Below, piece after piece: positions 715 to 57,725 of a stretch of 64,000 nucleotides of DNA. Origin of the DNA: an uncultured bacterium (lineage in GTDB: Bacteria > Bacteroidota > Ignavibacteria > UBA10030 > BY39); NCBI GenBank assembly GCA_937967455.1, contig CALCJK010000018.1, positions 1 through 64,000 on the forward strand, written 5' to 3'. Numbering within the stretch: the first letter of the stretch is position 1; the number at the start of each line of letters is the position of its first letter. A program made the position numbers and the translations under genes. Below the pieces are notes generated by a model. That model did not search any database. It was not told the origin of the DNA and saw only the letters and a list, made by a program, of their open reading frames with translations.

Positions 715-747
715 AAACAAAAAACCCCGCTCTATAATTAAGCGGGG
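715..747 (-). terminator. Intrinsic terminator of the exported hydrolase gene
   Basis: The arms CCCCGCT (725-731) and AGCGGGG (741-747) form a GC-rich stem with a 9-nt loop. Read on the minus strand the stem is followed by a T-rich run. It lies about 40 bp beyond the stop codon at 790. Confidence 0.9.
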
Positions 748-789
748 CTTGTGTTGAAATATCTGACAGAATAACGATGTGTAAACTTA

Positions 790-6690: not shown

Positions 6691-6692
6691 AA

Positions 6693-8081: not shown

Positions 8082-8083
8082 AA

Positions 8084-8575: not shown

Positions 8576-8576
8576 T

Positions 8577-37599: not shown

Positions 37600-38300
37600 T
37601 GCAAAAAACTATTACTATAATTTTGATATTTATATTTTCGTTCAATACCTACTCACACAACGATTCTATAAAAGCTTCTAATTTTAAATTCGAATCAATT
37701 TTAACTTCACTACCTCCATTTTTATTATCAAATATTTATAAACTAAAAGAATATATCCGAAGTAACGAATTCGAATCAATACGAAAAAAAGATGGAGACC
37801 TTGCAGCAGTTGATTCTATTTTCCAATATTCTTTAAAAATTACAAATAACAATATTGGTTTCTCACTTCTCGTTTCTTCAATTGCTTGCTTCGATCATTA
37901 TACTCTGGAGATAAAACTTCCAATCTTAAATCTACCTATTCCAATTACAAATGAATCTAAATCTGAATTTGAAAAACGCCTTAAGAATATCCCATCACAT
38001 TTCCTTCCAGATTCACCTAAATATTATTATGGTGATAAAGATAAACTCCAACATATATTCGGTTCAGCATTTTTGTCTTATGCTTTTGAATCATCAAGTG
38101 TAACTAATTTATATTCAATTTTTGTAGAAAAGTTCGAAGATAGATATATTAAAGATGGTTCATACGATAAACGAGATTTAATTGCAAATGAAATTGGAAA
38201 AACATTTGGTTTCTCACTCATAAATAATAAAAAAACAAAATTAAGTGATGTTATAAAAAACTATTACAACAAACATGAAAACAATTTTAATAACAGATGA
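37599..38300 (+). CDS. Exported protein with a DKLQH motif, unknown function
   Basis: The 233-residue product has a signal peptide (about 1-19). The C-terminal half contains GDKDKLQHIFGSAFLSYAF (about 147-165) and later KRDLIANEIGKTFG (about 198-211). The combination recalls the DKxxH...G pattern of the YfiM/DUF2279-like group, but length and the rest differ. Its ATG overlaps the carboxylase stop codon (TGATG), and its end overlaps the regulator gene by 26 bp, so it belongs to this operon. Probably periplasmic or membrane-associated; function unknown. Confidence 0.75.
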   Translation: MQKTITIILIFIFSFNTYSHNDSIKASNFKFESILTSLPPFLLSNIYKLKEYIRSNEFESIRKKDGDLAAVDSIFQYSLKITNNNIGFSLLVSSIACFDHYTLEIKLPILNLPIPITNESKSEFEKRLKNIPSHFLPDSPKYYYGDKDKLQHIFGSAFLSYAFESSSVTNLYSIFVEKFEDRYIKDGSYDKRDLIANEIGKTFGFSLINNKKTKLSDVIKNYYNKHENNFNNR

Positions 38301-39633
38301 TGAAAAAAGTATCCGTGACTCAGTCGGAATAATACTTAATTACGAAAAATACAATCCATTATATGCTGAAAACGGTAAAAAAGCACTTGAGTTAATAGAA
38401 AATTCCGAACATCAAATCGACTTAGTAATTCTTGATGTCAAAATGCCAGAAATGGATGGTATAGAAGTTTTACAGGAAATTAAAAAACTGAATAAAGACT
38501 TACCTGTAATTATGATTTCAGGTCATGGTACAATTGAAACAGCAGTTGAAGCTACAAAACTTGGTGCATATGATTTCATAACGAAACCACTTGATAGAGA
38601 TAAACTATTAATCACAATTAGAAATGCTCTTGAACATAAAAAATTATTAACTGAGTTTGAAGAAATTAAGGTTCAGCTTGAGGGTAAAGAAAGAATCTTA
38701 GGTGAAAGTGCGAAAATAAAAGAAATTATTGAATTGATTGAAAGAATAGCTCCAACTGAATCAAGAGTTTTAATTACAGGTGAAAATGGCACTGGAAAAG
38801 AATTAGTTGCCAAAGCAATTTATAGACTAAGTAAAAGAAAAGATAAACCATTTGTTGAAGTTAACTGTGCAGCAATCCCTAATGAATTAATTGAATCAGA
38901 ATTATTTGGACACGAAAAAGGAGCCTTTACAGGTGCAACTTCACAAAGAATTGGAAAATTTGAACAGGCAAATGGTGGAACAATTTTTCTTGATGAGGTC
39001 GGAGATATGAATTTATCGGCTCAGGCTAAAGTATTACGAACGCTTGAAGAAGGTAAAATTGAGAGAGTTGGTGGAAACAAGCTTATTGAAGTAGATGTGC
39101 GCGTAATTGCGGCTACAAATAAAAATTTGCTGGAAGAGATTAAAAAAGGAAACTTTAGAGAAGATCTTTACCATAGATTAAATGTGATACCGATAAATGT
39201 TCCACCACTTCGTGAGCGGCTTGAGGATATTCCAATTTTAATAAAAGCATTTACAGAAGAAATATGTAGAAGGAACGGCATTCCAATTAAAAATTTTACT
39301 GAAAGAGCAATTAATTACTTAAAGGGATTGGAGTGGAGTGGAAATGTTAGGGAGTTAAAAAATGTTGTAGAAAGATTCATAATATTAACACGCAAAGACA
39401 CGATTGACATTCAAGATATTGAAATTTTAACAGTAACAAAGGGTTCAGTGGTAGATGATATTATTTTTACCAGTAAAACTTTTCAGGAATTCAAAGAGCG
39501 AGCAGAAGCAGCTTTTATAAAACATCAGCTTGAAATTCACAACTGGAACATCAGCAAAGCAGCTGAGTCGATGGACATAGAAAGAGCACATCTTTATACA
39601 AAAATGAAAAAATATGGACTCGAAAGGAAGTAA
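38275..39633 (+). CDS. Sigma-54-dependent response regulator, NtrX/NtrC family
   Basis: The 452-residue protein has a receiver domain (about 1-120) with phosphoacceptor Asp54 in VILDVKMPEMDG. The AAA+ sigma-54 activator domain (about 140-370) has the Walker A loop GENGTGKE near 169-176 and the sigma-54 contact loop GAFTGA at 216-221. Walker B is GGTIFLDEVGDM. The C-terminal Fis-type HTH (about 405-450) ends SIDMERAHLYTKMKKYGL-like (SMDIERAHLYTKMKKYGLER), as in NtrX. No partner kinase is adjacent. It is the last gene of the acyl-CoA operon and overlaps the previous gene. Confidence 0.92.
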   Translation: MKTILITDDEKSIRDSVGIILNYEKYNPLYAENGKKALELIENSEHQIDLVILDVKMPEMDGIEVLQEIKKLNKDLPVIMISGHGTIETAVEATKLGAYDFITKPLDRDKLLITIRNALEHKKLLTEFEEIKVQLEGKERILGESAKIKEIIELIERIAPTESRVLITGENGTGKELVAKAIYRLSKRKDKPFVEVNCAAIPNELIESELFGHEKGAFTGATSQRIGKFEQANGGTIFLDEVGDMNLSAQAKVLRTLEEGKIERVGGNKLIEVDVRVIAATNKNLLEEIKKGNFREDLYHRLNVIPINVPPLRERLEDIPILIKAFTEEICRRNGIPIKNFTERAINYLKGLEWSGNVRELKNVVERFIILTRKDTIDIQDIEILTVTKGSVVDDIIFTSKTFQEFKERAEAAFIKHQLEIHNWNISKAAESMDIERAHLYTKMKKYGLERK

Positions 39634-43843: not shown

Positions 43844-45010
43844 TTATGGATATTTAAATTCAACTTTCTCTGAATTTTTAATTAACATTTTAATCATCTC
43901 ATCGATCTCAAGATTTTTCTCTGCTTCTAAAACTTCGTTAATATCTGCCCAGGTTTCGGGATTTCTGGGTGTTAGATAAGAACAACAATCGTCATATGGC
44001 TCTTTTGATATTTCGTAAGTCCCAATCTGGTTTGCAATTTTAACTATTTCCTCTTTATCGTATCCTATTAGAGGTCTAAAAATTGGTAAGTTTGATGATG
44101 CATCAATAACTCTGATGTTTTGAAGCGTTTGCGAAGCTACCTGTCCAAGTGCTTCTCCTGTAATAAGTGCATTTGCTTTTTCTAACTCAGCGAACTTTTC
44201 AGCAACTCTAATCATCATTCGGCGATATAGTATAACCCGCAATTTGGGATCCGTTTTAAGCACAATTTCTTTCTGACATTCAGCAAAAGGCACAAGATAA
44301 AGTTTCGAATGATATTGAAAAGGAGTCAATTTATTAACAATACTTTTAACCTGCTCAATTGAATTATTTGAAACATATGGATAGCTATGAAAATGTACAA
44401 ATATTACATATGCACCCCGCTTCATAATTTTATAAGAAGCAACGGGTGAATCAAACCCTGCAGATATTAGGGATACAACTCTACCACTTATTCCTGCTGG
44501 CAAACCACCTGCTCCATCAATTTTTGAAAGATAAATGTAAGCCTTTTTATTTGCTAATTCTATAAAAATTGTTACATCTGGATTAGAGAGATTTGCTCGC
44601 ACGTTAAATCTTTTACAAAGATATTCACCAACTTGAGAGTTAATTTGAACAGAATTCATCGGAAAATTTTTATCAGCACGTGATGATTTGACTTTAATTG
44701 TATTAAACTGCTTATTACGCAATAATATTTCTGCAGTAGTATTGAATAAATCTATAGATTGTTCAACCTCATAACCAGAGCAAATATTTGATAAACCAAA
44801 TACCATCTTCAATTGCTCAATTACTTTATCCTGAATATTTTCTTGATTCAAGTAAATTATAAATCTACCGTATCCGCCAGTTATGTTATTTTGAGGAATC
44901 AAATTTTTGATCGAGAGTCGTACATTTCTAAGAAGATGTTTTTCAAAATATGAGCGATTTTTCCCTTTTAATCCAATTTCATGATGATGTACAACTATAA
45001 TTGGTTTCAT
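43844..45010 (-). CDS. thiI: tRNA 4-thiouridine synthase ThiI (no rhodanese domain)
   Basis: ThiI adenylates U8 of tRNA and transfers sulphur to it; some versions also serve thiazole synthesis. The 388-residue product has an N-terminal ferredoxin-like plus THUMP region (about 1-165). The PP-loop is VSLISAGFDSPVASYKI near 179-195. A Cys pair lies at 342-343 in EPYDDCCSYLTPRNPE. The protein ends at 388, so it lacks the C-terminal rhodanese domain of the E. coli type and needs a separate sulphur donor. Its start overlaps the rhomboid gene end by 4 bp. The small Tat-like gene follows after 13 bp. Confidence 0.93.
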   Translation of the reverse strand: MKPIIVVHHHEIGLKGKNRSYFEKHLLRNVRLSIKNLIPQNNITGGYGRFIIYLNQENIQDKVIEQLKMVFGLSNICSGYEVEQSIDLFNTTAEILLRNKQFNTIKVKSSRADKNFPMNSVQINSQVGEYLCKRFNVRANLSNPDVTIFIELANKKAYIYLSKIDGAGGLPAGISGRVVSLISAGFDSPVASYKIMKRGAYVIFVHFHSYPYVSNNSIEQVKSIVNKLTPFQYHSKLYLVPFAECQKEIVLKTDPKLRVILYRRMMIRVAEKFAELEKANALITGEALGQVASQTLQNIRVIDASSNLPIFRPLIGYDKEEIVKIANQIGTYEISKEPYDDCCSYLTPRNPETWADINEVLEAEKNLEIDEMIKMLIKNSEKVEFKYP

Positions 45011-45699
45011 AAAAAGTTATATGTTCTAAAAATTTTCTTTCTTCTAAAAATAAGTAGTAAAAATGTGCCCGATACAAATCCACCGATGTGTGCCCACCAG
45101 GCAACACCACCTGCATCGCTCCCAATTCCAAGCATTAACATACCACTTAGAAATTGCATAAAAAACCAGATTCCTAAAAATACAAACGCTGGGAGCTCAA
45201 CAAACTGGATAAAATAAAAAATTGGAACAAGTGTTAATATCTTTGCTCTCGGAAACATAAAAATATATGCACCTAAAACTCCTGCAATAGCACCACTTGC
45301 CCCTACCATTGGAATTTCCGAAGCTGGATTTATTAGATATTGAGACATTGCTGCTCCAACACCAGATAAAATATAAAATATCATATATTTTAAGTGACCA
45401 AGTCGATCTTCTACATTGTCACCAAAAATATATAAAAATAACATATTCCCAATAAGATGCATCCAACCACCATGCATAAACATAGAGCTTAAAATTGGGA
45501 AAAAAGTTCTCAATCCAAAATCATAATATTGAATTTGCTCTGTTAATCGAGAAGGAACAAGTCCAAAGGCATATATAAAGCTTTCAAAATTTCTTCCTAA
45601 TGAAATTTGAAATAAAAAAACCAAAACATTCATTGTTATCAGTGCATAGTTTACAACTGGAAAAGTATATCTGGGATTAGTATCACGTAATGGTATCAT
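45007..45699 (-). CDS. Rhomboid-family intramembrane serine protease
   Basis: The 230-residue protein has six transmembrane segments. The N-terminal extracytoplasmic loop is followed by FMHGGWMHLIGNMLFLY with His76, His81 and Asn85. The catalytic Ser135 sits in MVGASGAIAGVLGAYI, and the catalytic His204 in WWAHIGGFVSG. Rhomboids cleave membrane proteins within the bilayer; the substrate is unknown. It is flanked by thiI and an esterase gene, each overlapping by 4 bp. Confidence 0.92.
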   Translation of the reverse strand: MIPLRDTNPRYTFPVVNYALITMNVLVFLFQISLGRNFESFIYAFGLVPSRLTEQIQYYDFGLRTFFPILSSMFMHGGWMHLIGNMLFLYIFGDNVEDRLGHLKYMIFYILSGVGAAMSQYLINPASEIPMVGASGAIAGVLGAYIFMFPRAKILTLVPIFYFIQFVELPAFVFLGIWFFMQFLSGMLMLGIGSDAGGVAWWAHIGGFVSGTFLLLIFRRKKIFRTYNFL

Positions 45700-46337
45700 T
45701 TTTTATCCAGTAATTTTGTAATCCATTTTGAAATATCATCTATACTCTCTTCACAAATATGATGTTCAATTGGATATTCTTTATAGTTCACATCGGCTTC
45801 GAGCTCTTTAAAAACTTTTTTAGTTTCTCTACCCAGCATTACAGGAATTATGGAATCGTAAATTCCATGAGCAATGAATACTGGTTTATTTGGAATTTTT
45901 TTATACTCATACTCCGAAATTGCAGGTAAGTATCCACTGTGAGAAATATTCGCAAAAACTTTTTCAGGATACAATGTTGAAAACAAATTTCCTATCATTG
46001 CGCCCATGCTAAACCCAAAAATGAATATCTTATTTTTATCAATTTCGTAATCATTTATTACCTTTGAAAGAAATTCATCTAATAGCTTTAAACTTGTATT
46101 TAAACCTTTCAAATCTGGTGTAAAATCTGAATTCATATCAAACCAGGTATAACCAAAACCAAATTCCCATTTATATGGAGCTCGAAGACTTAAAATTAAA
46201 AAACGCTTGTCTAAATAATCGCTTAGACCAATTAGATCGTTCTCATCAGCTCCTCTGCCATGCAACAGTATCATACAAGGAGATTTAGCATCTGATTTTT
46301 TTTGAGGTTGTATTATTTTATGATAAATTGAACTCAT
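45696..46337 (-). CDS. Phospholipase/carboxylesterase (alpha/beta hydrolase)
   Basis: The 213-residue hydrolase has CMILLHGRGADENDLIGLSD near 22-41 and the nucleophile motif IFGFSMGAMIG near 105-115. An Asp in GIYDSIIPVMLGRE near 158 and a C-terminal His in PIEHHICEES near 194 complete the triad. This is the group of predicted esterases related to YpfH and to acyl-protein thioesterases. Cytoplasmic, no signal peptide. It overlaps the rhomboid gene by 4 bp. Confidence 0.88.
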   Translation of the reverse strand: MSSIYHKIIQPQKKSDAKSPCMILLHGRGADENDLIGLSDYLDKRFLILSLRAPYKWEFGFGYTWFDMNSDFTPDLKGLNTSLKLLDEFLSKVINDYEIDKNKIFIFGFSMGAMIGNLFSTLYPEKVFANISHSGYLPAISEYEYKKIPNKPVFIAHGIYDSIIPVMLGRETKKVFKELEADVNYKEYPIEHHICEESIDDISKWITKLLDKK

Positions 46338-46383
46338 TTTTTTCCTTTATTGAAATGTATTAAAGATTTTGTTATTATCAAAA

Positions 46384-47511
46384 CTAAATAATTCTTTTAT
46401 AAATAGATAAAATCTTTTCTGCAGCTGTTTTTCGATCGAATTTTTTAATTCTTTCCAACCCTTTATTGATTAAATTCTTCTTCAGGTTGGTATCCTCACA
46501 TAGATTTAGTATTGCATCTCTAAGTTTATCTGAGTCAGAAGGTTCAAAAAAGAGTGCTGAATCACCTGCAATTTCAATAAGCGATGATGACCGTGATGTA
46601 ATGACAGCAGTTCCAGATGCCATTGCCTCGAGTACTGGAACACCATAACCTTCATAAATTGAGGGATAAACCAGAAATTCTGCAAGCCTATAAATTGCTA
46701 CAAGATCATCTAATGGAATGTAATGAAGCAAGTGTATTTTATTTTTGATTGAGGATTTACTTATTCTATCAAGAATCGGTTTATAATACCAGCCCAGTTT
46801 ACCTACTAAAACAAGATGTAATTCAAGTTTTTTTAACTTGTGTAACTTTTCAAAAGCTTCAATTAACACTGTGATATTTTTTCTTGGTTCTATAGTCCCT
46901 ACAAAAAGAATGAAAGGAAATAAAAGTTTGTATTTTTCTTTTACTTTTTCGATTAACAATTTATCAATCGAGTGATAAAATTTATCATCTACAGGTAAAT
47001 ATATTGCATTTACCATATCTTCAGGCACTTTGAAAGCATTTATAACATCATTTTTTGTTTGTTCTGAAGGAACAATTATAGAGTCCGTTCTATAAACATT
47101 TTGAGCAATAATTTTATCCCATTTTAACACCTGTGATTGGAATAAATTTGGAAACTTTTTATATGCAAGATCATGTATTGTAATAATTGATTTTTTATTT
47201 TTAATTGGTGGCATTAATGGTTCACAGCTGTGAAATATGTCATAATCACCAACAATATATTTTACGTCTGGAAATTTCAATTTATTAAAATAAAATCTTT
47301 TAATAAATCCTGGAATTTTTGATAATTTAATTACAACATTTTCCCTTGCAAATTTACAGACAGCTTTTTTATCAATAGAAAATGACCAACCCCATAATAT
47401 ATACTCATTTTCCCTATCATAATTTAACAATGTGTTTAACAATTCAGTAGTATGATGTCCATAGCCCGCACGTTCAATCTGAAAATAACTTATATCCAAA
47501 ACAATTTTCAT
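46384..47511 (-). CDS. Family 4 glycosyltransferase
   Basis: The 375-residue GT-B enzyme has FVGTIEPRKNITVLIEAF near 195-212, the donor-binding LVYPSIYEGYGVPVLEAMAS near 296-315, and the catalytic EX7E of GT4 in this stretch. The N-terminal half starts VLDISYFQIERAGYGHHTTE. The start at 47511 is preferred over one at 47610 because it falls 7 bp after the preceding gene and directly before the first strand. The alternative would run 100 bp back into that gene. It acts in an exopolysaccharide or glycan pathway with the next two genes. Confidence 0.88.
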   Translation of the reverse strand: MKIVLDISYFQIERAGYGHHTTELLNTLLNYDRENEYILWGWSFSIDKKAVCKFARENVVIKLSKIPGFIKRFYFNKLKFPDVKYIVGDYDIFHSCEPLMPPIKNKKSIITIHDLAYKKFPNLFQSQVLKWDKIIAQNVYRTDSIIVPSEQTKNDVINAFKVPEDMVNAIYLPVDDKFYHSIDKLLIEKVKEKYKLLFPFILFVGTIEPRKNITVLIEAFEKLHKLKKLELHLVLVGKLGWYYKPILDRISKSSIKNKIHLLHYIPLDDLVAIYRLAEFLVYPSIYEGYGVPVLEAMASGTAVITSRSSSLIEIAGDSALFFEPSDSDKLRDAILNLCEDTNLKKNLINKGLERIKKFDRKTAAEKILSIYKRII

Positions 47512-47518
47512 AACAAAC

Positions 47519-48631
47519 TCAACTATTGCAACCAAGCTTGTGAAAAAGTTCATATATAACAGCCACAGCTTTGTCGACACTATAATTTTCTTCAACCATC
47601 TTTCTGGCATTAAAAAGAAGATTGTCCGGCACTTGTTTATTTTTTATTCTTTCAATTAATCCTGATAATTCATCAACATTTTCTTCATTAAAAACAAAGC
47701 CATATTCCCTAATAACATTGGGGATATCGCCAGAATTGGATCCAATAACATATACACCACTTGCCATCGCTTCAATTAATATTCGACCAAACTGTTCCTT
47801 CCACTTCTGGGTTGTGCGTGATGGTAAAACTAACACTTTTATTTTATTTAAATAATTAGGTACTTCGCTATATTTTACAGCATCAACCCAGGCTATTTTA
47901 TTTTCAATCCCCAATTCAGCAGCTAAATTCATCAAATATTTTTGTTCAGGTCCACGACCGACTATTAAACAGTTTAAATTAAGCTTTGCGATAGCTTTTA
48001 TAAGTACATCCACACCTTTTTCGTATGATAATCTGCCAATATAACCAACAAAAAATTCTTTTTCATTATTAGGATTGAATGCAAAATTATTTAAATCAAC
48101 TGTTGGCGGTACAAAGACTACTTTCCAGTTAGAAATATTTCCCATAATATTCACAGCTGAATAAGAATGAGCAATGCATACATTTATTCTTTTTATTGTG
48201 TATTTTTCTATAATTCTATTTAAAAAACCCATTTTATAAGGGAATGGATTGAAACGGTAATCAATGTTCCTCCATGTAGCACAAACAATTTTTGTGTTTG
48301 GAAAATATTTGTTAACTAATCTTACTAAATGATATGTATTGAAATTTTCTGGTTCACTGCTTATAAAAACAATTCGTGGTTTTACCTTCATCATTATAGA
48401 TTTTAATTTAATATAAACTATTCTCTGATGCCGATGCCCAAATATAAATGGGCTGGTATAAACTTTTAATAGTTCGCTCTCTTCTTCCTCACAATGTGTA
48501 ACGATTCCTTGTTCCTTCCAGGATTTAGGAACTAACAGAAAAACCGGTTCCCCAATTTTTCTGGCTAATTCTCTATAAATCCCTCTTCTGCTCGAATTAA
48601 CAGCAAGGTTATCAATTATTAATATTTTCAT
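47519..48631 (-). CDS. Family 4 glycosyltransferase
   Basis: The 370-residue enzyme has FVGYIGRLSYEKGVDVLIKA near 190-209 and LIVGRGPEQKYLMNLA near 218. The donor-site stretch VLPSRTTQKWKEQFGRILIE is near 267-286, with EX7E. The N-terminal domain carries ERELARKIGEP-like start (YRELARKIGEPVFLLVPKSW). It is of the GT4 kind that transfers nucleotide-sugar glucosyl or mannosyl groups to lipid-linked oligosaccharides. Its start overlaps the flippase-methyltransferase gene by 4 bp, so the three genes form one polysaccharide-assembly set. Confidence 0.88.
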   Translation of the reverse strand: MKILIIDNLAVNSSRRGIYRELARKIGEPVFLLVPKSWKEQGIVTHCEEEESELLKVYTSPFIFGHRHQRIVYIKLKSIMMKVKPRIVFISSEPENFNTYHLVRLVNKYFPNTKIVCATWRNIDYRFNPFPYKMGFLNRIIEKYTIKRINVCIAHSYSAVNIMGNISNWKVVFVPPTVDLNNFAFNPNNEKEFFVGYIGRLSYEKGVDVLIKAIAKLNLNCLIVGRGPEQKYLMNLAAELGIENKIAWVDAVKYSEVPNYLNKIKVLVLPSRTTQKWKEQFGRILIEAMASGVYVIGSNSGDIPNVIREYGFVFNEENVDELSGLIERIKNKQVPDNLLFNARKMVEENYSVDKAVAVIYELFHKLGCNS

Positions 48632-50781
48632 ATCTTCTTAGCTTTCAAAATTATATTGTAACTCAACCGTCCCCACGAGATGCTATTGTCAAGGTCTCCC
48701 AATTTTCTCCAGAAATTACTCAAATCCCATCCAAAATGCCGCTTCGTAAAATTATTTAATCCAAAAGTAATTGGATATAAAAACAAACCACCATAGTGAA
48801 GCTTTTCTATTTTAAATAATCTAAACAACAAAATTCTTAAATCTTTATATGAATAATGTTTATGATGCCGTGCATATTTTTTGTGTTTTAATTTTATTGA
48901 AAGATTTTCTGGGTCAAGAAAAGTAAATAAACCTTTATAAGGAACAGATAAAATTAAAATTCCATCTTTTTTCAATACTCTCCAAGCTTCTGCTATTGCC
49001 ATCTTATCACTACTCAAGTGTTCTATAACATCAAGCATTAGAACGGTATCAATTACTTCAGATTCAATTGGTAAATTCTCTGCTGATGCTGCAATTAGAT
49101 AAGAATTTTTTTTATTTATAGATCTTAAGGCATTCAAATCGGTATCTATACCAATCACAATTCTACTTTTTGCTGATAGATAATTGAGCAATGGTGTATT
49201 CGAACAACCAACATCTAGAACAATATCTGATTCTGGTAACCAGCTAAATGCCCATTTTTGTCTGTCCGTTAGTGGAATGCTTAAACCTGCAAATTTTTTT
49301 GCAATACCTGCTATGCGAGGGTTAATCTTGGAAATAATTTCAATATCTCTATAATTAAGTGGTTTGAATATTCTAAAAACAACAAATATAAGAATCAAAT
49401 ATATAATAATTGTGATGAGGAGATTTGAATAATTTAAAAATTTGTTAATTTCAAGCACTGAAATACCGCAAATTATACTTATAGCTAATATTTTCGATGC
49501 AAATTTTGTATTCAATTTTGCATTAAATGCTTGCTTAACAAAATGGAAATGTAACAATGCAATTAATAAGTTTGAGATAGCGAGAGCGATAACAGCACCG
49601 TATATTCCAATATAATAAATTAATATTGGAGCAAGTGTAATATTTAAAACACCACATATAATACTCGAAATTAAAAGTTCTTTAACCATTCCCTTAGATT
49701 GTAAATAATCTGCTGACAATCCCCCACCAAATATTCTTGTTGCAATAAAAACAGTGGAAAATAGTTGAAACCATAATACACTTTTCAGATATTGTTCAGA
49801 ATAAACCGTTAAGATAATACTTTTAGCAAATATTATAAAAAAAACAAAAGAAGGAATTATGAGAATTAAAATAAATCTATTAATCGTAATCCAGTAATCT
49901 TCTAAGATCTTTTTCCCTTTTTCCTCAACAGTCGAGAATGCAGCTACAGAAACACCATATAAACCAATCGTAAGTCCGAAATTAAGTGCTTGCGCAAAGC
50001 TAAATGATACATCTAAGTTACCTATTTCATAAAAGCCCACAGCAAGAATTCCAGAAATAAGAATCGTTGCTTGCTTACCGAACAGAAATTCAAGCATCGA
50101 GTTAAACCAAAATCTTACACCCAGAGATAAAATATTCTTAATGGCTATATATTGTCCATCAACTTTAAAAATAAAACCTTTTAAAAAAATCAACAACATC
50201 AATACCTGTAATAAATTTGAAGCAACGAGCAAAATGAATATTTCTCTAAGCCCAAATCCATAAATTAAAATAACATAAGCAGTAATTACTTCCATGATTC
50301 GCGTAGAAACTGCTATTGAATAGACAACTTTTGTTTTAAAAAAAGAGATCAAAAAAGAATTCAGGAGGGATATAATATTTTTCAATGTAAAAAAACAGAT
50401 TACAAAAACAAGATAATTCAGAACATGTTCAGAAATATTAAGTAGTTCAAGAAGATTATTTTTGAAAAAGTATATTATTAGGCTAATAAGAATTGTGGTA
50501 GAAACGCGAAATAACAATAATTTTCTAATGGTTGTTGCAGCTTTGGAAATCTCGGCACCGAAATATTTAGGAAAGGTAGAATTTATTGAAGTTTCAAGTC
50601 CAAATGAAGACAGTGCACCGAACAAAAACACCATGCTAAGTACTGATGCATATATTCCGTTTAATTGAGAACCCAGATATTTTGCAATCAATACTGAAAG
50701 TATGAAGATCAGGATAAACTCAAATGATCTTCCTAATTGGTTCCAAAAAAAACCCTTGATTATGCGTTTGGTATCGTCCAT
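48628..50781 (-). CDS. Fusion of a Wzx-type polysaccharide flippase and a SAM-dependent methyltransferase
   Basis: The 717-residue protein has about 13-14 transmembrane segments in its first 475 residues, in the pattern of oligosaccharide-lipid flippases (MOP/PST). A soluble C-terminal domain of about 215 residues starts near 503. It has a class I methyltransferase fold: motif I at 519-526 (IVLDVGCS), an acidic strand end IGIDTD, VLMLDVIEHLSSDKMAIAE near 580 and LKKDGILILSVPYKG near 603. No frameshift or stop lies between the parts. The methyltransferase may act on the sugar carried by the flippase. Separate genes are the common arrangement. Glycosyltransferase genes follow. Confidence 0.88.
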   Translation of the reverse strand: MDDTKRIIKGFFWNQLGRSFEFILIFILSVLIAKYLGSQLNGIYASVLSMVFLFGALSSFGLETSINSTFPKYFGAEISKAATTIRKLLLFRVSTTILISLIIYFFKNNLLELLNISEHVLNYLVFVICFFTLKNIISLLNSFLISFFKTKVVYSIAVSTRIMEVITAYVILIYGFGLREIFILLVASNLLQVLMLLIFLKGFIFKVDGQYIAIKNILSLGVRFWFNSMLEFLFGKQATILISGILAVGFYEIGNLDVSFSFAQALNFGLTIGLYGVSVAAFSTVEEKGKKILEDYWITINRFILILIIPSFVFFIIFAKSIILTVYSEQYLKSVLWFQLFSTVFIATRIFGGGLSADYLQSKGMVKELLISSIICGVLNITLAPILIYYIGIYGAVIALAISNLLIALLHFHFVKQAFNAKLNTKFASKILAISIICGISVLEINKFLNYSNLLITIIIYLILIFVVFRIFKPLNYRDIEIISKINPRIAGIAKKFAGLSIPLTDRQKWAFSWLPESDIVLDVGCSNTPLLNYLSAKSRIVIGIDTDLNALRSINKKNSYLIAASAENLPIESEVIDTVLMLDVIEHLSSDKMAIAEAWRVLKKDGILILSVPYKGLFTFLDPENLSIKLKHKKYARHHKHYSYKDLRILLFRLFKIEKLHYGGLFLYPITFGLNNFTKRHFGWDLSNFWRKLGDLDNSISWGRLSYNIILKAKKI

Positions 50782-50802
50782 TAAAACAAATATATAAAAA
50801 TT

Positions 50803-50843
50803 AACTCAATGTAAAAATTCTTATTTAGAAAAATACATGAGTT
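50803..50843 (-). terminator. Intrinsic terminator-like hairpin after the hybrid kinase gene
   Basis: AACTCAATGTA (50803-50813) and TACATGAGTT (50834-50843) form a ten-pair stem with one bulged base. On the minus strand AATTTTTATAT follows. It begins right at the stop codon of the kinase gene. Confidence 0.55.
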
Positions 50844-53229
50844 ATTTTTTAGCCATATCGAGTGTGGTTCGAATAGTTTTTAGGATTTGATCAAAATGCA
50901 ATGGTTTAGATAAAATTTCCTTAATCCCAAGTTTATAAAGCTCTGACCTCTTCTCTAGTTGTATATAACCCGTCATAATAATTGTGTATACATCCGGTTT
51001 AATTTTTTTAATTTCTAAAAACATTTCATCCCCTGTCATTTTAGGAAGCCCCAGATCAGTAATAACTAGGTCAATATTATTATGTTTATCCATAAAAAGT
51101 TTTAAACCTTCATAACCATTTGATGCTGTAAAAACTGAATAACCTGCATCCTGTAACAAATTTTTTATAGTCGACAACAAAAATTCTTCATCTTCAACAA
51201 GTAATATAGTTTCTGTACCTCTATAATCAACAATTGTTGTTATATCTTGTGGCTGGGGTTCAATAATTTCTAAAGTTGGGAAATATATTCTAAATGTTGT
51301 ACCTTTTCCCGGTTCTGATTCAACATCAATAAATGCATTGTGTGCATTAACAATTCCATATATAATTGAGAGACCCAGACCCGTACCTTTTCCAATTTCT
51401 TTTGTTGTAAAAAACGGATCAAAAATTCTACTCAATATTTCTTTTGTCATTCCAATCCCTGAATCTTTTACTTCTAAAACGACATACAACTCTTTGTTAG
51501 CTTGTGAAAATTTATTTATTATTTCTGACCCTAAAATATTATAAATTGAGATTGTTAATTTACCACCATTGGGCATTGCATCTCTTGAATTTACACATAA
51601 GTTGAGAAGCACCATATGTAATTGTGTGCTATCAGCATAAACATTTTCATTCTGAGCTTTAAGGACTACTTCAATCTCTATATTTTTTGGGAAGGAATGT
51701 CTTAATATATTAACAACTTCTCTAACAATTGTAGAAAATTTTACAGGGGCAAATTTACCTTTTTCTGCTCTTGCAAATAAAAGGAGTTGCTTAGCAACAC
51801 CAGCTCCTCTTTCTATTGCTTTTTTCCCCATATCCAATAATTTTTGTATTTCATCTGATTGAATCTTCATTCCAATCATATCCAAAACACCCAGTACAAT
51901 TCCCATTACATTATTAAAGTCGTGTGCTATACCTCCTGCAAGAGTACCAATTGCTTCCATTTTTTGAGAATGTAACAACTTTTCTTCAAGTTTTTTTCTC
52001 TCTGTGTTATCAAATAGGTAACCTCTTATAATTTTAATTTCACCATTCTCATCGAGTTCAGCGAAAACATTTTCAATAATGTACAATGGAGTACCATCTT
52101 TTTTCCGTAGCTCTATTTCATAGTTATATAATCTTTTTTGTTCTTTCAATAATCTTAAAAATTCCTCTCTAACCTGGAAAGATGGATATCTTTGATATGT
52201 ATTTTCTTTTATTACCTCTTCTACAGAATCATAGCCAAATATTTTAGCATATGCTGGATTACATTCCAATAATTTCCCATCTGGAGTAGAAATAAAATCG
52301 CCTGTTAAATCATCTTCAAAAAATCTTCTATATTTCTCTTCAGATGCTCTTAATTTTTCATTAGCTTCTTTAATATCCATTAAAATATTTAAAAGAGCTT
52401 TTTCTGATCTTTCGAGCTGGATAGTTCTTTCCTGCACCTTATTTTCAAGTTCTTTACCCCATCTTTCTATTTCTTCGTGAGAATTTTTTAAATCATCAAT
52501 CATCTTATTGAATGATTTTGCAAGTATTCCTATTTCATCATCTGCCTCAACTTCAACCTTTACATTTAAATCTCCACCTGCAATTTTTTCAGTTGCCTCA
52601 ATCATGCGATTTAAAGGTTTGAAAACAATTCTTGATAGATATCTTGAACCAATAACTACAATAAAAATCACAATGAGACCTAAAGAAAGAAACAACATCT
52701 CAACATTTTTAATAGAGGAATATAAATAATCAAGTGACATAGCCAATCTTAATGTTCCCCAAGTCTGATCATTATATTTAATAGGTAGTGTTAATTCTCT
52801 CAAATTATATTCAACTTGATTTATAATTACATTTTTTCTATCAATTTTATTACTTTCAAAACTTTGAACTTTTTCTTCAAGAGCTTTTTCAAGTAACACT
52901 TTATATTTTTCAGAATAATATTTAGAGGCAACCGGAGAATTATTTCTGTCATAAACTATTATATAACTCAAATCATTAACACCTGAGATATTACTAATAT
53001 CCCTCTGTATTGTTGTGTAATCATAAATAAACAAGGGCCTAAGGCTCGAAGATGCTATATTATTTCCCAAAGCTAATAATGTTTCTTTTTGAAGATCAAA
53101 AAGCTGATTTGATATCTGAATCCTGAAAATTATCAACAAAGTTAAAAATATCATAATAAATAGAAAACATATGGAAAATATCAATTTACTCTGCAGACTC
53201 AAATTTTTAAAAAACACGTTTAACTTCAT
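50842..53229 (-). CDS. Hybrid sensor histidine kinase (HAMP-PAS-HisKA-HATPase-REC)
   Basis: The 795-residue protein has a transmembrane helix (about 16-36), a periplasmic domain (about 37-172) and a second helix (about 176-197). A HAMP domain runs about 198-250, then a PAS domain (about 295-410). The HisKA domain has phosphorylated His436 in LAGGIAHDFNNVMG, a form usual in PAS-containing hybrid kinases. The HATPase has DSGIGMTKEIL and GTGLGLSIIYGIV. A C-terminal receiver runs 673-795 with Asp725 in VITDLGLPKMTG. It overlaps the upstream peptide-binding protein gene by 4 bp. It has no output domain, so signals pass to another regulator. Confidence 0.93.
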   Translation of the reverse strand: MKLNVFFKNLSLQSKLIFSICFLFIMIFLTLLIIFRIQISNQLFDLQKETLLALGNNIASSSLRPLFIYDYTTIQRDISNISGVNDLSYIIVYDRNNSPVASKYYSEKYKVLLEKALEEKVQSFESNKIDRKNVIINQVEYNLRELTLPIKYNDQTWGTLRLAMSLDYLYSSIKNVEMLFLSLGLIVIFIVVIGSRYLSRIVFKPLNRMIEATEKIAGGDLNVKVEVEADDEIGILAKSFNKMIDDLKNSHEEIERWGKELENKVQERTIQLERSEKALLNILMDIKEANEKLRASEEKYRRFFEDDLTGDFISTPDGKLLECNPAYAKIFGYDSVEEVIKENTYQRYPSFQVREEFLRLLKEQKRLYNYEIELRKKDGTPLYIIENVFAELDENGEIKIIRGYLFDNTERKKLEEKLLHSQKMEAIGTLAGGIAHDFNNVMGIVLGVLDMIGMKIQSDEIQKLLDMGKKAIERGAGVAKQLLLFARAEKGKFAPVKFSTIVREVVNILRHSFPKNIEIEVVLKAQNENVYADSTQLHMVLLNLCVNSRDAMPNGGKLTISIYNILGSEIINKFSQANKELYVVLEVKDSGIGMTKEILSRIFDPFFTTKEIGKGTGLGLSIIYGIVNAHNAFIDVESEPGKGTTFRIYFPTLEIIEPQPQDITTIVDYRGTETILLVEDEEFLLSTIKNLLQDAGYSVFTASNGYEGLKLFMDKHNNIDLVITDLGLPKMTGDEMFLEIKKIKPDVYTIIMTGYIQLEKRSELYKLGIKEILSKPLHFDQILKTIRTTLDMAKK

Positions 53230-54815
53230 TTTTCAATCCACACATTCTTAAGATTAAGATTTATAAAACCGAGAGGTGTTATGTTGAAATTTTCTATATA
53301 ATCATATGTGGCAACTGTATTCATTCCGTAATATAAAGGTATTATTATTGCTTCTGATTCGAGTTCTTTTTCAATTTGTTGATATATTTCTATTCTTTTA
53401 TTAGTATTGCTTTCTTTTTTACCCAAAATTAATAAACTATCAATCTTCTTATTTTTCAAATTAAAGAAATTTGCACTTCCTGAAGAATGAAGCAAACTAT
53501 AGAAAAAAGCATCAGGGTCTGGGAAATCAGCTACCCAGCCAAGTGTAAACATAGGAAGCGATCTACTATCCAACCTTTTTGAGAGCTCAATCCAATTCAA
53601 ACCCACAATATCGATTTCTAAACCAAGTTCTTTAAGATCGTTTTTGATTTCTTTTTCTTCATTCCCTGAGATTGTAAAAAGTTTAAGCCGAGGAATTTTA
53701 TTAGTAAAATTAAGCTTAAACTTGTTAAGGATTTTTTTTGCAGAATCAAGATTATAAAATTGATGAGTATTAGCTGGATCGTAGCCCAGAAGTCCTGGAG
53801 GAATAAATCCATTAGCACTTAGTCTACTTGTACCATATAAGATATTAAATTTATCTTTATTAATTGCATAAAAAATTGCTCTTCGAATATTTTCATCATT
53901 GAAAGGTGAGATACTACTGTTTATACCTAAAAAATATATTGATAATTCTGGACGCTGGTAAATTTTGTAATTTTTAGAATTTTTTATTTCATTCAATCTT
54001 TTAAATGAGACATGAGTTATATCTAATTCACCTTTTATAAACTTATCTATTTCATCATCATAAGTAAAATGTGTTGGAGTATAAATAATTATAGAGTCTA
54101 AGAACGGTCGACCCTCAAAATACTTTTCATTTGCTTCAAGAATTATGTGATCGTTTTCTTTCCAACTTCCAAACTTAAATGGACCTGTTCCTACTGGTGA
54201 GGACCCAAAATTAAGATTGCCTTCTACTACCTCTTTGGGTACAACGCTAAAATTATTCATTGATAGAACTGTCAGAAACGGCATACTGGGTTCTGTTAAA
54301 GTTATTTCTAATGTTAAAGAATCAATTAATCTTAATCCTGAAATATCATTTGTTTTATTATTTAAGAAATCTTTTGCACCTTCAATTAACAGGATATATT
54401 CTATACCAAGGAATGGTTCTCTTTTGCTAAAGTTTAATATTCTTTTAAAAGTATACACAAAATCATCTGCTGTAAGTTTTCTCCCATTATGGAAAAAAAC
54501 ACTATCATGGAGGTAAAATCTATATGTTCTTCTATCTTCTGATATTTCCCAATATTTTGCTATACTTGGCACTATATTTAAATTATCATCTAAATCCAAA
54601 AGTCCATTAAAAATCTGATTCAGGATTGTGCTTTCATAAACATTTCTCATGTAAAGTGGATCAAGGGAATAAGGAACATCTTGCATAAAGCGGAGTGTTC
54701 CACCATATTTCTTTTTGTCTTCTGATTTATATTTGTCTTCTGTTTTTTGATTGCATGTACACAATCCGAGTATAAAAAACAAAATAAACAATATTATTTT
54801 AAAATTAAATTTCAT
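53226..54815 (-). CDS. Peptide/solute-binding lipoprotein of SBP_bac_5 family
   Basis: The 529-residue protein starts with a hydrophobic signal and LGLCTC, with Cys19 or Cys21 as lipidation candidates (neither gives a perfect lipobox). The body is a family 5 extracellular binding protein: GGTLRFMQDVPYSLDPLYMR near 38, YRFYLHDSVFFHNGRKLTADDF near 96, PVGTGPFKFGSW near 212 and a C-terminal domain with IIPLYYG. No permease or ATPase genes are near. The gene overlaps the hybrid kinase by 4 bp, so it may serve as the ligand-binding partner of that sensor instead of transport. Confidence 0.9.
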   Translation of the reverse strand: MKFNFKIILFILFFILGLCTCNQKTEDKYKSEDKKKYGGTLRFMQDVPYSLDPLYMRNVYESTILNQIFNGLLDLDDNLNIVPSIAKYWEISEDRRTYRFYLHDSVFFHNGRKLTADDFVYTFKRILNFSKREPFLGIEYILLIEGAKDFLNNKTNDISGLRLIDSLTLEITLTEPSMPFLTVLSMNNFSVVPKEVVEGNLNFGSSPVGTGPFKFGSWKENDHIILEANEKYFEGRPFLDSIIIYTPTHFTYDDEIDKFIKGELDITHVSFKRLNEIKNSKNYKIYQRPELSIYFLGINSSISPFNDENIRRAIFYAINKDKFNILYGTSRLSANGFIPPGLLGYDPANTHQFYNLDSAKKILNKFKLNFTNKIPRLKLFTISGNEEKEIKNDLKELGLEIDIVGLNWIELSKRLDSRSLPMFTLGWVADFPDPDAFFYSLLHSSGSANFFNLKNKKIDSLLILGKKESNTNKRIEIYQQIEKELESEAIIIPLYYGMNTVATYDYIENFNITPLGFINLNLKNVWIEK

Positions 54816-54852
54816 TTGTTATCTTTTCCGATATTAGTTATATAACTATTAT

Positions 54853-55083
54853 TTATCTCATAATTATTGATTGTTGAGAAAGAAGATAGTTCGAAGATAT
54901 TTGTATGATTAAATTAAGATTTGCCTCGCTATAAAAACTAATAATTACCAGATAAGGATTAAACCTTTTTATTAAAATATTTTCTGCAGTTTTAATCAGT
55001 ATAATTTCAATATCCGCAAAATTATATTTAATAACATAAAAGAGCTTTGGGAAATCTCTTTCGATAAAAACAAAAATTTGCAT
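54853..55083 (-). CDS. Possible small protein, degenerate receiver-like (doubtful)
   Basis: The 76-residue frame lies alone in the 304-bp gap between the binding-protein gene and the oxidoreductase operon, on the same strand. Its pattern loosely recalls a receiver domain: an acidic turn after strand 1 (IFVFIERDF), then AENILIKRFNPYLVIISF. The phosphoacceptor Asp position reads Ser/Phe. No good ribosome binding site is seen (weak GGA at about 15 bp), and composition matches AT-rich background. It may not be real. Confidence 0.3.
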   Translation of the reverse strand: MQIFVFIERDFPKLFYVIKYNFADIEIILIKTAENILIKRFNPYLVIISFYSEANLNLIIQISSNYLLSQQSIIMR

Positions 55084-55119
55084 TTATATCTTTAAAGTCC
55101 TCTAACTTTATTCAACAAT

Positions 55120-55674
55120 TCAGTTGGACTTTCCACTAACAACATTCAATCCATATTGATAACCCTTATCAAATGCTTTTAAGTTAAGATCTTCAGTACC
55201 TTTAGGGACCGAAGCTATGACAGCTTTGCGCATTGCTTCTGGATTGATGAGTTTTGTAACAGCAGTCATAAAACCAATCATAACTATATTCACAACTAAC
55301 TTTTTCCCCAGCTCTTCAGCGAATCTAGTAGCAGGAATAGAGTAGTGCTTAACATCTTTTCTGAGATTTATCGGATTAACTAACTCTTCTTCAGTGATCA
55401 AAATTCCACCAGGTGCAAGTTCAGAGGAAAACTTTGCATAAGCTTCCTGAGACATTACTACAAGTATCTGTGGGTTTGTAATATAAGGATAATCTATAAT
55501 ATTGGGATCTACAATTACTTGAGCACTACAGGCACTTCCTCTTGCTTCTGGACCAAATGCTTGGATCATTGTGGCGTATTTGTTATCGTAAATTGAAGCA
55601 GCTCTCCCAAGTATGTAACCACTTAAGATTACGCCTTGTCCACCAAATCCACCTATTTTAATTTCTGTTCTCAT
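55120..55674 (-). CDS. korC: 2-oxoacid:ferredoxin oxidoreductase, gamma subunit
   Basis: The 184-residue protein has the gamma-subunit signature EIKIGGFGGQGVILSGYILGR at its start. GPEARGSACSAQVIVD near 44-59 and a QEAYAKFSSELAPGG segment follow. It is the smallest of the three non-ferredoxin subunits and helps route CoA and electrons. It lies 11 bp after the beta subunit, at the end of the four-gene set. The subunit set is closest in pattern to 2-oxoglutarate oxidoreductase (Kor); a branched 2-oxoacid or pyruvate form cannot be ruled out. Confidence 0.9.
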   Translation of the reverse strand: MRTEIKIGGFGGQGVILSGYILGRAASIYDNKYATMIQAFGPEARGSACSAQVIVDPNIIDYPYITNPQILVVMSQEAYAKFSSELAPGGILITEEELVNPINLRKDVKHYSIPATRFAEELGKKLVVNIVMIGFMTAVTKLINPEAMRKAVIASVPKGTEDLNLKAFDKGYQYGLNVVSGKSN

Positions 55675-55685
55675 AATTGATTCCT

Positions 55686-56561
55686 TTATCCTTTATATGG
55701 GGTATATTTATCACCAAACTTTTTTTGATAATGTTCATTCATTAAAGTTAAGTAATCAGGTCGATCGCGATCTACAAACTTCCCGACGATAATTTTACTT
55801 TGAAATTCCAGTGCGACTTCTTTCGTGTTTGCACCGTGTTTAATTTCACTATTTTCTTTATAATACAACATTTGATCAAGCCCATCGCCTAATTTATTCC
55901 TTCTACTATAAAGAGTTGGGCAAGGAGCTAGTATTTCAATAAATGAGAATCCTTTTTTTGCTAAGGCTTCCTTAATAGATTTTGTAAGGTGGCGAACATG
56001 ATAAGCTGTCCAACGTGCCACATAAACAGCACCACATGAATCAGCAAGATATGGTAAATTAAATGGTTGTTCAAAGTTTCCATGAGGTGTTGTGCTTGCC
56101 GTTGCAAATATTGGAGTTGTAGGGGCAACCTGCCCACCTGTCATACCATAAATCGAGTTATTCACACAAATTACAGTCATATCCAGATTCCTTCTTGCAG
56201 CATGTATAAAATGATTGCCACCGATTGCAAATAAATCTCCATCCCCACTATACACAACCACCTTTAATTCTGGATTTGCTAATTTTAAGCCTGTGGCAAA
56301 CGGAATAGGTCTTCCATGAGTAGTGTGGAATGAATCCAAGTTCAAATAACCTGCAACTCTTCCAGTACAACCGATACCTGAAACTATACTAACTTTATTT
56401 AAATCCAATCCACTAGTTTCAAGTGCTCTTGTAAAACAATTTACAGTTGTACCTATACCGCAACCTGGACACCAGATATGAGGTATGCGATCAGTTCTTA
56501 AAAATGATTCAATAGGATTTACAGGAATTGATTCTTCGATTTCTAAAATTTGTTCGTCCAT
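55686..56561 (-). CDS. korB: 2-oxoacid:ferredoxin oxidoreductase, beta subunit (thiamine diphosphate)
   Basis: The 291-residue subunit binds thiamine diphosphate. It has HIWCPGCGIGTTVNCFTRAL near 28-47 with the Cys pair of the family. GIGCTGRVAGYLNLDSFHTTHGR follows near 62-84. The ThDP-Mg site is VVYSGDGDLFAIGGNHFIHA near 101-120, with CVNNSIYGMTGGQVAPTTP. The Kor-like beta subunits have this GDGD...NN motif. It directly abuts the alpha subunit gene, without intergenic bases. Confidence 0.94.
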   Translation of the reverse strand: MDEQILEIEESIPVNPIESFLRTDRIPHIWCPGCGIGTTVNCFTRALETSGLDLNKVSIVSGIGCTGRVAGYLNLDSFHTTHGRPIPFATGLKLANPELKVVVYSGDGDLFAIGGNHFIHAARRNLDMTVICVNNSIYGMTGGQVAPTTPIFATASTTPHGNFEQPFNLPYLADSCGAVYVARWTAYHVRHLTKSIKEALAKKGFSFIEILAPCPTLYSRRNKLGDGLDQMLYYKENSEIKHGANTKEVALEFQSKIIVGKFVDRDRPDYLTLMNEHYQKKFGDKYTPYKG

Positions 56562-57725
56562 TTATTTTCCTTTTAAACTTTTTATAATTGCATTATAAAT
56601 ATCTTTTGGATTATGAACAGTACCTCCAGCATGAGGGACCAAATAAACAGGTGCTTTTCCGTAAGCATTTCTTTCTACCTCGTAGAAAATTTGCCCCTGA
56701 TTTAATTCAGGCACAATGAAACTCTTTATTCTTCCAGCAAGTTCAGTAATTCTTTTTTCAGGGAATGGCCAAACTACAATTAATCTCAGATGTCCAACTT
56801 TGATTCCTTCTTGACGCGCTTGATTGATTGCTGGAATAGCTACACGGGAAGTAATTCCATAAGTAACAACTACGACTTCAGCATCATCGATATTATCTTC
56901 TTTATATTCGATTATCTTTTCAGCATTCAACTTAATTTTATTAACCAACCTTGGGATTAGTTTTTCCTGAGCAGCTGCTGTCATAACAGGGTATCCTTTC
57001 TCATCATGGGTCAATCCAGTTACATGAATCTTATAACCATCACCTGCTTTTACTATTTTTGGTACTAGATCTTCATCTGGTTTAAAGGGCAAGTATTCAT
57101 CTCGAGGTCCTTCATAAAATCTTCTTGGGAAGATATTAATTTCCTCTGCGGGTGGAATTATCACACGTTCTGTCATATGCCCAACACACTCATCCATCAT
57201 AAATAGAACCGGAACTCGGTATTGTTCAGAAAGATTAAAAGCTTTTATAGTTAAATCGAAGCATTCTTGAGGAGAATTTGGTGAGAGTGCAATGATACCA
57301 TAATCTCCGTGAGAACCCCAACGAGCTTGCATCATATCACCCTGGGCTGGTTGAGTTGGCAATCCTGTCGATGGTCCTCCTCGTTGTACATCTACAAAAA
57401 CACAAGGAGTTTCTGTCATTGCAGCTAAACCTATATGTTCCATCATTAAAGAAAATCCTGGACCAGAAGTAACAGTCATTGCTTTTTTACCAGCCCAAAC
57501 AGCACCTTGAATTGCGATTGATGAAGCTATTTCATCTTCCATCTGAATAAATACACCACCGATAAGAGGAAATCGTTCTGCAATACGTTCCACAACTTCA
57601 GTAGATGGTGTAATAGGATAACCGGCTACAAATCGACAGCCTGCAGCAATTGCACCTTCGCTACAAGCATGATCTCCGTCAAGGAAATGAGCACCAGTTA
57701 GAACTGCTTTTGGATCTGCTTTCAT
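56562..57725 (-). CDS. korA: 2-oxoacid:ferredoxin oxidoreductase, alpha subunit
   Basis: The 387-residue subunit carries the PYR domain: AIAAGCRFVAGYPITPSTEV near 25-44, IQMEDEIASSIAIQGAVWAG near 59-78, TVTSGPGFSLMMEHIGLA and DVQRGGPSTGLPTQPAQGDM near 112-131. The C-terminal domain II (about 255-380) is of the type that ends near VPHAGGTVHNPKDIYNAI. The TGLPT motif and length fit 2-oxoglutarate oxidoreductases. The complex makes succinyl-CoA, CO2 and reduced ferredoxin from 2-oxoglutarate, or works in reverse in reductive carboxylation. It follows the ferredoxin gene by 15 bp. Confidence 0.94.
   Translation of the reverse strand: MKADPKAVLTGAHFLDGDHACSEGAIAAGCRFVAGYPITPSTEVVERIAERFPLIGGVFIQMEDEIASSIAIQGAVWAGKKAMTVTSGPGFSLMMEHIGLAAMTETPCVFVDVQRGGPSTGLPTQPAQGDMMQARWGSHGDYGIIALSPNSPQECFDLTIKAFNLSEQYRVPVLFMMDECVGHMTERVIIPPAEEINIFPRRFYEGPRDEYLPFKPDEDLVPKIVKAGDGYKIHVTGLTHDEKGYPVMTAAAQEKLIPRLVNKIKLNAEKIIEYKEDNIDDAEVVVVTYGITSRVAIPAINQARQEGIKVGHLRLIVVWPFPEKRITELAGRIKSFIVPELNQGQIFYEVERNAYGKAPVYLVPHAGGTVHNPKDIYNAIIKSLKGK

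Follow-up and report, generated by a model that had tools for sequence, protein, structure and literature searches.

A family 5 solute-binding protein gene overlapping a hybrid histidine kinase gene in the Ignavibacteria: a probable sensory pair without a visible importer

The window analysed here, a 64,000-nucleotide stretch of contig CALCJK010000018.1 from an uncultured member of the Ignavibacteria, contains a gene for a family 5 solute-binding protein (SBP) followed on the same strand by a gene for a hybrid histidine kinase (Table 1). Both open reading frames proved to be real, and the overlap between them, already reported in the preliminary description, was confirmed. It reads ...AAATGAAG... 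both in the window and in the one same-genus genome compared, the ATGA pattern expected for translational coupling. The absence of transporter genes beside the pair also held when eight neighbours were scanned with Pfam (43844-57725, minus one esterase-like ORF). The flippase-methyltransferase fusion downstream is possibly a member of the operon or a target of the pair.

Table 1. Features of the SBP-kinase locus and its surroundings in the window.
Feature	Position	Strand	Remarks
NtrC-type response regulator	38275..39633	+	REC + sigma54 activator + Fis HTH
Flippase-methyltransferase fusion	48628..50781	-	60 bp 3' of kinase; same strand in both species
Hybrid histidine kinase	50842..53229	-	795 aa; TM1, periplasmic domain, TM2, HAMP, PAS, HisKA, HATPase, REC
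Kinase periplasmic PDC/sCache-like domain	residues ~36-175		limits by eye, between TM1 and TM2
Kinase domain residues	HAMP 198-248, PAS 312-410, HisKA 428-491 (weak), HATPase 533-652, REC 675-787		
ATGA overlap, SBP stop / kinase start	53226..53229	-	4 bp; identical in same-genus genome
Family 5 SBP	53226..54815	-	529 aa; probable lipoprotein; sole PF00496 match in genome
Decayed remnant of gene preceding SBP in same-genus genome	54775..55083	-	42% match to its residues 1-104

The SBP matched SBP_bac_5 (PF00496) over residues 80-448 (E 9.8e-75), scoring 252.4 bits against a gathering cut-off of 32.4 and covering positions 1-367 of the 368-position profile. Its earlier labelling as a lipoprotein is plausible: a hydrophobic N-terminal stretch runs up to Cys21, which is present in both species, but the lipobox is weak, with Thr at -1. 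In an alignment to DppA at 27% identity, D408, which we take to be the Asp for the peptide N-terminus, pairs with the same residue in the SBP (D430), and R355, presumably the Arg for the C-terminus, pairs with K378 in a gapped stretch. Judging by the names of family entries, nickel, heme and agrocinopines are also ligands of family 5 proteins. A peptide specifically would therefore be a guess, the most likely ligand being either a short peptide or some other ligand of this family.

The kinase gave Pfam matches to HAMP (5.6e-15), PAS_9 (2.5e-10), HATPase_c (1.1e-23) and REC (2e-23), together with a HisKA match (E 0.0012) whose 19.3 bits fall below the 26.9-bit cut-off. H-, N- and G-box-like motifs and the receiver Asp were present when read by eye, and the transmembrane segments were likewise placed by eye. 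HisKA (below cut-off), HATPase_c and REC thus occur together on a single polypeptide that also has transmembrane segments, which bears out the description as a hybrid sensor kinase. A Pfam scan to E 0.01 showed no DNA-binding domain, and the receiver stops at residue 787 of 795. By profile comparison, the periplasmic domain resembles PDC/sCache domains, with matches to 4onx (7.5e-5), DcuS 3by8 (1.1e-4) and CitA 1p0z (0.0017). Single-sequence Pfam matches all remained below cut-off (CHASE8 at 0.042 for the window protein, sCache_3_2 at 0.11 for the sister protein), and the fold predicted from the single sequence was poor, with pLDDT <50 at residues 55-153. A search of 395 genomes returned sensor-domain matches in 74, of which only that in the same-genus genome was a close relative (72%); the remaining long matches were 17-29% identical or covered little beyond TM2 and HAMP.

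The same-genus copies were 78% (SBP) and 83% (kinase) identical, at a dS of 1.1-1.2. Both genes are under purifying selection, with dN/dS of 0.11 for the SBP and 0.08 for the kinase, as calculated with a simple Nei-Gojobori script from this single comparison, in which dS exceeds 1. The sensor part of the kinase is among the less constrained regions (0.19, vs. 0.05 for the kinase part and 0.02 for the receiver). Co-occurrence across genomes, proposed earlier as a check, was found to the extent that the same-genus genome carries both the pair and its ATGA overlap; only these two genomes have it. Since the flanking genes are collinear in both species too, the fact that the two genes have stayed neighbours says little more than the overlap already does. 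In the same-genus genome, the SBP gene is preceded by a gene for a 539-aa protein with three PAS domains (Pfam) and, by eye, a receiver-like N-terminus and a coiled coil; the corresponding remnant in the window holds four in-frame TAA codons.

The home genome, 99% complete in 39 contigs, shows no second PF00496 protein. The OppB-type permease family PF19300 was found in neither of the two genomes of the genus, compared to 20/20 other SBP-carrying genomes tested, which were chosen from SBP search matches and not at random. The Opp/Dpp ATPase tail PF08352 was likewise found in 0/2, vs. 11/14 controls. BPD_transp_1 gave only four matches in the home genome at E up to 0.001, namely a pair adjoining pstB/phoU-like ORFs and a MalFG-like pair (subtypes named by eye). 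With 39 contigs a gene could lie in a gap, yet both families are also missing from the same-genus genome, which leaves the SBP without a visible importer and with only the kinase beside it. A role of the SBP in an importer with scattered genes was considered and rejected, because neither PF19300 nor PF08352 was matched in either species. The failure to find matching uptake machinery, together with the overlap with the kinase gene, indicates that the SBP probably acts as the ear of a sensory pair and not as a transporter component.

We also rejected the view that it is simply one of the order's usual Dpp SBPs: the window SBP is only 21-28% identical to the SBPs found in 60 relatives, Dpp-type neighbours characterise 17 of the 22 order loci, and 13 of those order SBPs group in the tree as a clade of their own (100/100). 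Neighbours were assigned by phmmer with E. coli DppB, DppC and DppD and two kinase queries, within ~1.5 kb around the Pfam match for the 22 order loci and up to ~5.5 kb for 19 fetched distant loci. Permease or ATPase genes adjoin the SBP at 17/22 order loci over the Pfam cut-off, the window's own locus being included in the 22, and L131 (marginal DppB) and L132 (a fragment at a contig end) being counted as permease-type. Two loci, L129 (near a contig end) and L130, had neither a Dpp-type nor a kinase neighbour. A further contig scan added one relative (24%), beside Dpp genes. None of the 19 distant loci (L093-L111) has a kinase immediately adjacent to the SBP; at L093 the divergent neighbour encodes a receiver protein, and at L095 and L096 a kinase lies at least 3 kb away. 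Permeases beside the SBP of relatives, without an adjacent kinase, had been named as the finding that would speak against a sensing pair. The outcome was divided but for the most part favourable to the pair: the close relative has the kinase and no such permease, whereas most of the distant SBPs in the order have a permease or an ATPase gene as neighbour.

Measured by path, the SBPs that lie closest to the window SBP in the tree come from other classes of the phylum. The window SBP and its same-genus copy stand beside, not inside, a 28-row clade (97/98) of these, at a weakly supported fork (83/92) that also includes the permease-linked L053. A long stem (1.31), together with long branches or skewed composition in several rows, leaves the finer placement unsure. 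The row labels PERM, ORPH and KIN, which do not enter the tree, are rough: neighbours were checked for part of the ORPH rows, and at L030 a neighbour resembles DppD.

Another family of the order contains an SBP-kinase-NtrC triad (genome G022), apparently independent of the window pair: the tree does not join the two SBPs, although support there is weak. G022 also encodes a PF19300 permease, next to a different SBP. In a search for further kinases of the triad's type, comprising 98 genomes, the other matches listed start at residue 213 or later and hence share its kinase part and hardly its sensor.

Taken together, these results favour a two-gene sensory module, at a probability of about 0.68. 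The SBP would be exported, probably lipid-anchored, and would bind a small extracellular ligand; in one of its two states it would dock on the PDC/sCache-like domain and switch autophosphorylation, with either sign, via TM2, HAMP and PAS. It would have no remaining transport role in this genus. No Hpt protein was found in either genome of the genus, which argues against a classical phosphorelay and suggests that output probably passes directly to a distinct response regulator, with the receiver in the kinase itself serving as a brake or sink. The NtrC-type regulator, 11 kb from the pair in both species and with no kinase in its 1.5-kb flanks, is a candidate partner. Type IX secretion tails are present among the proteins, in keeping with a place in the Bacteroidota. 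The earlier idea that the SBP informs the kinase is more strongly supported by the lack of Opp/Dpp permease and ATPase matches in both genomes, its peptide part remaining a guess.

Small ligands can bind directly to PDC/sCache domains, as in DcuS and CitA, and the kinase may therefore be able to do without the SBP. The two proteins could then be co-transcribed non-partners, the kinase responding to a small ligand of its own or to the state of the membrane and the SBP scavenging, chaperoning or binding to the surface. The sensor profile resembles these domains, and the region collinear in the two species includes unrelated genes; against this stand the overlap, kept at dS above 1, the second SBP-kinase pairing in the order, and the few other jobs that we know of for an SBP without a transporter. 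We consider this explanation unlikely, but to be taken seriously. More doubtful is a stronger form of the sensory module, in which a former importer SBP is now a pure receptor, Opp/Dpp having been lost or never inherited, and forms the peptide-sensing half of the hybrid kinase, possibly for a self- or neighbour-made peptide signal; if true, a Gram-negative lineage would here have a periplasmic receptor for a peptide signal. Improbable, too, is a dual role in transport and sensing, the SBP still supplying an importer whose genes lie elsewhere, as may be the case for its nearest relatives in the phylum, and perhaps informing the kinase as well. Such separation is suggested by 16 of the 19 distant loci, which lack a flanking Dpp gene although PF19300 occurs in all 16 genomes, and by G022 with its additional permease, but PF19300 and PF08352 are missing from both genomes of the genus and the home genome's only BPD_transp_1 pairs look like Pst and MalFG. 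Ongoing loss of the operon in this species, leaving a pair that no longer functions, might be suggested by the decayed upstream PAS gene, but is very improbable: both the SBP and the kinase gene are intact, and their dN/dS is ~0.1.

Among known systems, LuxP is a dedicated SBP docked on the PDC-type periplasmic domain of the hybrid kinase LuxQ, the arrangement proposed here for the window pair; it differs in that LuxP is a sugar-binding-type SBP for AI-2 and that LuxQ has a tandem PDC and signals through an Hpt protein, none of which was found in the genomes of the window pair. DppA, a family 5 dipeptide SBP that also serves a transporter, reports to Tap; it shares with the window pair the combination of a family 5 SBP and a membrane receptor, but Tap is a chemoreceptor and not a kinase. 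CBP-ChiS of Vibrio likewise combines a family 5-type SBP with a hybrid sensor kinase, and ChiS carries a DNA-binding domain.

According to the available text of one report, ChiS itself binds DNA, whereas the window kinase ends at its receiver domain, and CBP also acts in uptake and in negative control of chitin signalling (PMC10667598). SBPs of at least 13 families are described as binding receptor domains in the available part of another (PMC9602780). In Ruminiclostridium cellulolyticum, CuaD binds the kinase CuaS; as in the window pair, the SBP gene adjoins the kinase gene and the SBP is dedicated, CuaD being separate from the transporter's SBP (available sections of PMC10384115). As described there, CuaD-CuaS-CuaR differs in its cellobiose ligand, its own response regulator gene and its control of a cognate importer present in its host (PMC10384115); the window SBP has no visible importer. 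Because uptake hardly explains the window SBP, sensing can be tested here free of confusion between transport and signalling, and an SBP with no cognate permease and an overlapping kinase gene offers a genome-wide criterion for other SBPs turned receptors. The window pair shows the gene linkage of the SBP-dependent sensor kinases (LuxPQ/CuaDS) and, as a probable sensory pair, adds a sensible new case to an arrangement already known; it is not a new kind.

The pairing reported in the preliminary description, of a family 5 solute-binding protein (SBP) and a hybrid histidine kinase whose genes share a 4-bp overlap, was confirmed by Pfam and by the junction itself, which reads ATGA both in the window and in G001, the sister-species genome that was the only one of the same genus compared; the listed G001 ORF at this overlap starts 12 bases earlier, at GTG. 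According to Pfam, the SBP is preceded on its 5′ side by three 2-oxoacid:ferredoxin oxidoreductase-type genes, and the kinase is followed, after a 60-bp gap, by a flippase-methyltransferase fusion and two glycosyltransferases, an order of genes that was the same in G001. One extra gene was present in G001 between the oxidoreductase and the SBP, overlapping the SBP start and encoding a 539-aa protein with three PAS domains (Pfam), a coiled coil and a receiver-like N-terminus (the latter two by eye; no Pfam receiver match for the N-terminus). Because this gene is intact in G001 and a remnant in the window, the region is not frozen, and SBP and kinase are nonetheless intact. Identities between the two genomes were 78% for the SBP and 83% for the kinase, with dN/dS values of 0.11 and 0.08, respectively (dS 1.1–1.2), and both genes are under purifying selection. 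Within the kinase, the periplasmic part (dN/dS 0.19) and TM2 (0.41) were more variable than the kinase part (0.05) and the receiver (0.02).

Features of the window and of related loci
Feature	Position	Strand	Remarks
Family 5 SBP, 529 aa	53226-54815	-	ORF and Pfam
Hybrid histidine kinase, 795 aa	50842-53229	-	ORF and Pfam; after SBP
Remnant of the triple-PAS gene	54775-55083		42% to residues 1-104 of the G001 protein; 4 in-frame TAA codons
Polysaccharide flippase-methyltransferase fusion	48628-50781		Single 717-aa protein; equal length in sister species
NtrC-type regulator	38275-39633		No kinase in ~1.5-kb flanks; 11 kb from kinase
NtrC-type regulator with overlapping 233-aa ORF	37599-39633		Both with adjoining counterparts in G001
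Metallo-beta-lactamase-fold protein	790-2469		Por secretion (type IX) sorting tail
PLD-like protein	24598-27867		Por secretion (type IX) sorting tail
Triple-PAS/coiled-coil gene of G001	L023 7631-9250		Protein lacks a kinase domain match
SBP_bac_5, membrane kinase and NtrC regulator triad	L092 (G022:C32:105000-122000) 6655-11456		Overlapping ORFs; other family of the order

The evidence weighing most heavily against an uptake role for the SBP is the absence from both genomes of the genus of PF19300, the OppB-type permease N-terminal domain, which was found in 20 of 22 genomes carrying SBP relatives (the 20 comparison genomes being chosen from earlier SBP matches); the two without it were G001 and the window's own genome, G000. 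The oligo_HPY tail of Opp/Dpp ATPases (PF08352) was matched in neither genome of the genus, vs. 11 of 14 controls. In G000 (99.19% complete, 39 contigs) the SBP was the sole PF00496 match, and BPD_transp_1 gave four matches, two adjoining a pstB-like ATPase and a phoU-like gene and two forming a MalFG-like pair (subtypes by eye). The proposal that the SBP reports its ligand to the kinase was largely borne out at the genome level; ligand, docking and regulator are inferred.

Permeases beside the SBPs of relatives, with no kinase adjacency, had been named as the observation that would speak against this proposal, and the outcome was mixed, leaning towards the proposal: G001, the one close relative, has the kinase and no such permease, whereas Dpp-type neighbours predominate among the distant SBPs of the order. 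There, PF00496 was matched at E up to 0.001 in 24 of 98 genomes and above the cut-off in 21, giving 22 loci, with a DppB, DppC or DppD homologue in the fetched flanks of 17, a kinase in three (the window, G001 and contig C32 of G022, an order member from another family) and neither in two. The remaining three genomes of the family that includes G000 and G001 gave no PF00496 match. Of 395 genomes surveyed across the phylum, 230 gave a match (E up to 0.001), the top-scoring one outside the genus being only 36% identical. The wider flanks of 19 loci (L093–L111) contained no Dpp gene in 16, permeases in two and DppD-like neighbours only in one; a divergent receiver gene was found near L093, and a kinase at least 3 kb away in L095 and L096. 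All 16 genomes with Dpp-less flanks (L094–L107, L110, L111) encoded a PF19300 permease at another site in the genome.

When 49 SBPs were placed in a tree, the window and G001 sequences grouped together (100/100) on a long stem, apart from a 13-row clade (100/100) of the order's permease-linked SBPs. They were placed beside, and outside, a 28-row clade (97/98) from other parts of the phylum, through a weak fork (83/92) that also includes a permease-linked clostridial SBP.

A second SBP-kinase case was found in G022, where the SBP gene (PF00496, E 1.7e-44) overlaps that of a membrane kinase with HAMP and HATPase_c but no HisKA matches, the longest ORF of which is overlapped by an NtrC-type response regulator ORF. 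This SBP matched that of the window at 28%, and the tree does not group the two, although its forks are weak there and the G022 branch is long; the triad seems to have arisen when a family 5 SBP was independently recruited to a kinase. No Dpp-type gene was found in the 17 kb fetched, and the PF19300 permease of G022 sits elsewhere in the genome, adjoining its other SBP, indicating that importer loss is not required for SBP-kinase linkage. The NtrC-type member of the triad also offers a hint about which type of regulator the window kinase might use.

Hpt was matched in neither G000 nor G001 (controls, 8 of 14). The regulator survey of G000 covered the sigma54 activator family PF00158, with 20 matches; the 15 fetched as loci included 10 NtrC-type regulators with a receiver, seven with a kinase in their ~1.5-kb flanks and three without. 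One of these three is the NtrC-type protein listed for the window, whose G001 counterpart shares a contig with the G001 pair and is about as far from it; as the output regulator of the kinase, this protein is no more than a lead. The 233-aa ORF overlapping it had no Pfam match at E 1e-4.

Alignment of the SBP with Escherichia coli DppA (27% identity) showed that Asp408, which holds the peptide N-terminus, is kept as Asp430, and that Arg355, which holds the dipeptide C-terminus, aligns with Lys378 in a gapped part of the alignment. The nearest solved sequences were 8upi (a peptide SBP per its deposition; 1.2e-50), then 5u4o, DppE (8ay0) and OppA (2z23). A peptide is a reasonable candidate ligand; by entry names, family 5 also extends to nickel, heme and agrocinopine. 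For the sensor, a profile built from 19 aligned sensor regions and searched against solved structures matched, besides many HAMP domains, the PDC/sCache sensors 4onx (7.5e-5), DcuS (1.1e-4) and CitA (0.0017). The window sensor sequence alone gave only CHASE8 in Pfam, at 0.042 and below the cut-off, and unaided fold prediction failed in that region. The periplasmic domain is likely PDC/sCache-like.

SBP-dependent kinases are already an established kind. Published sources give about 10 cases characterised by 2022 and receptor domains bound by SBPs of at least 13 families (PMC9602780), adjoining SBP and kinase genes for many such kinases (PMC11113362), and binding of CuaS by CuaD, which aids cellobiose sensing (PMC10384115). 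In Vibrio, a chitooligosaccharide SBP is described as functioning in uptake and also as helping to control chitin signalling negatively (PMC10667598), so the sign of the switch in the window system could be either. In a literature coverage that omits most subscription journals, neither titles nor abstracts dealt with this pair, or with an importer-less genome in which a family 5 SBP is kept to serve a kinase; on such coverage, no priority is claimed. The window pair would be a further example of the known SBP-dependent kinases, with an unusually clean genomic argument.
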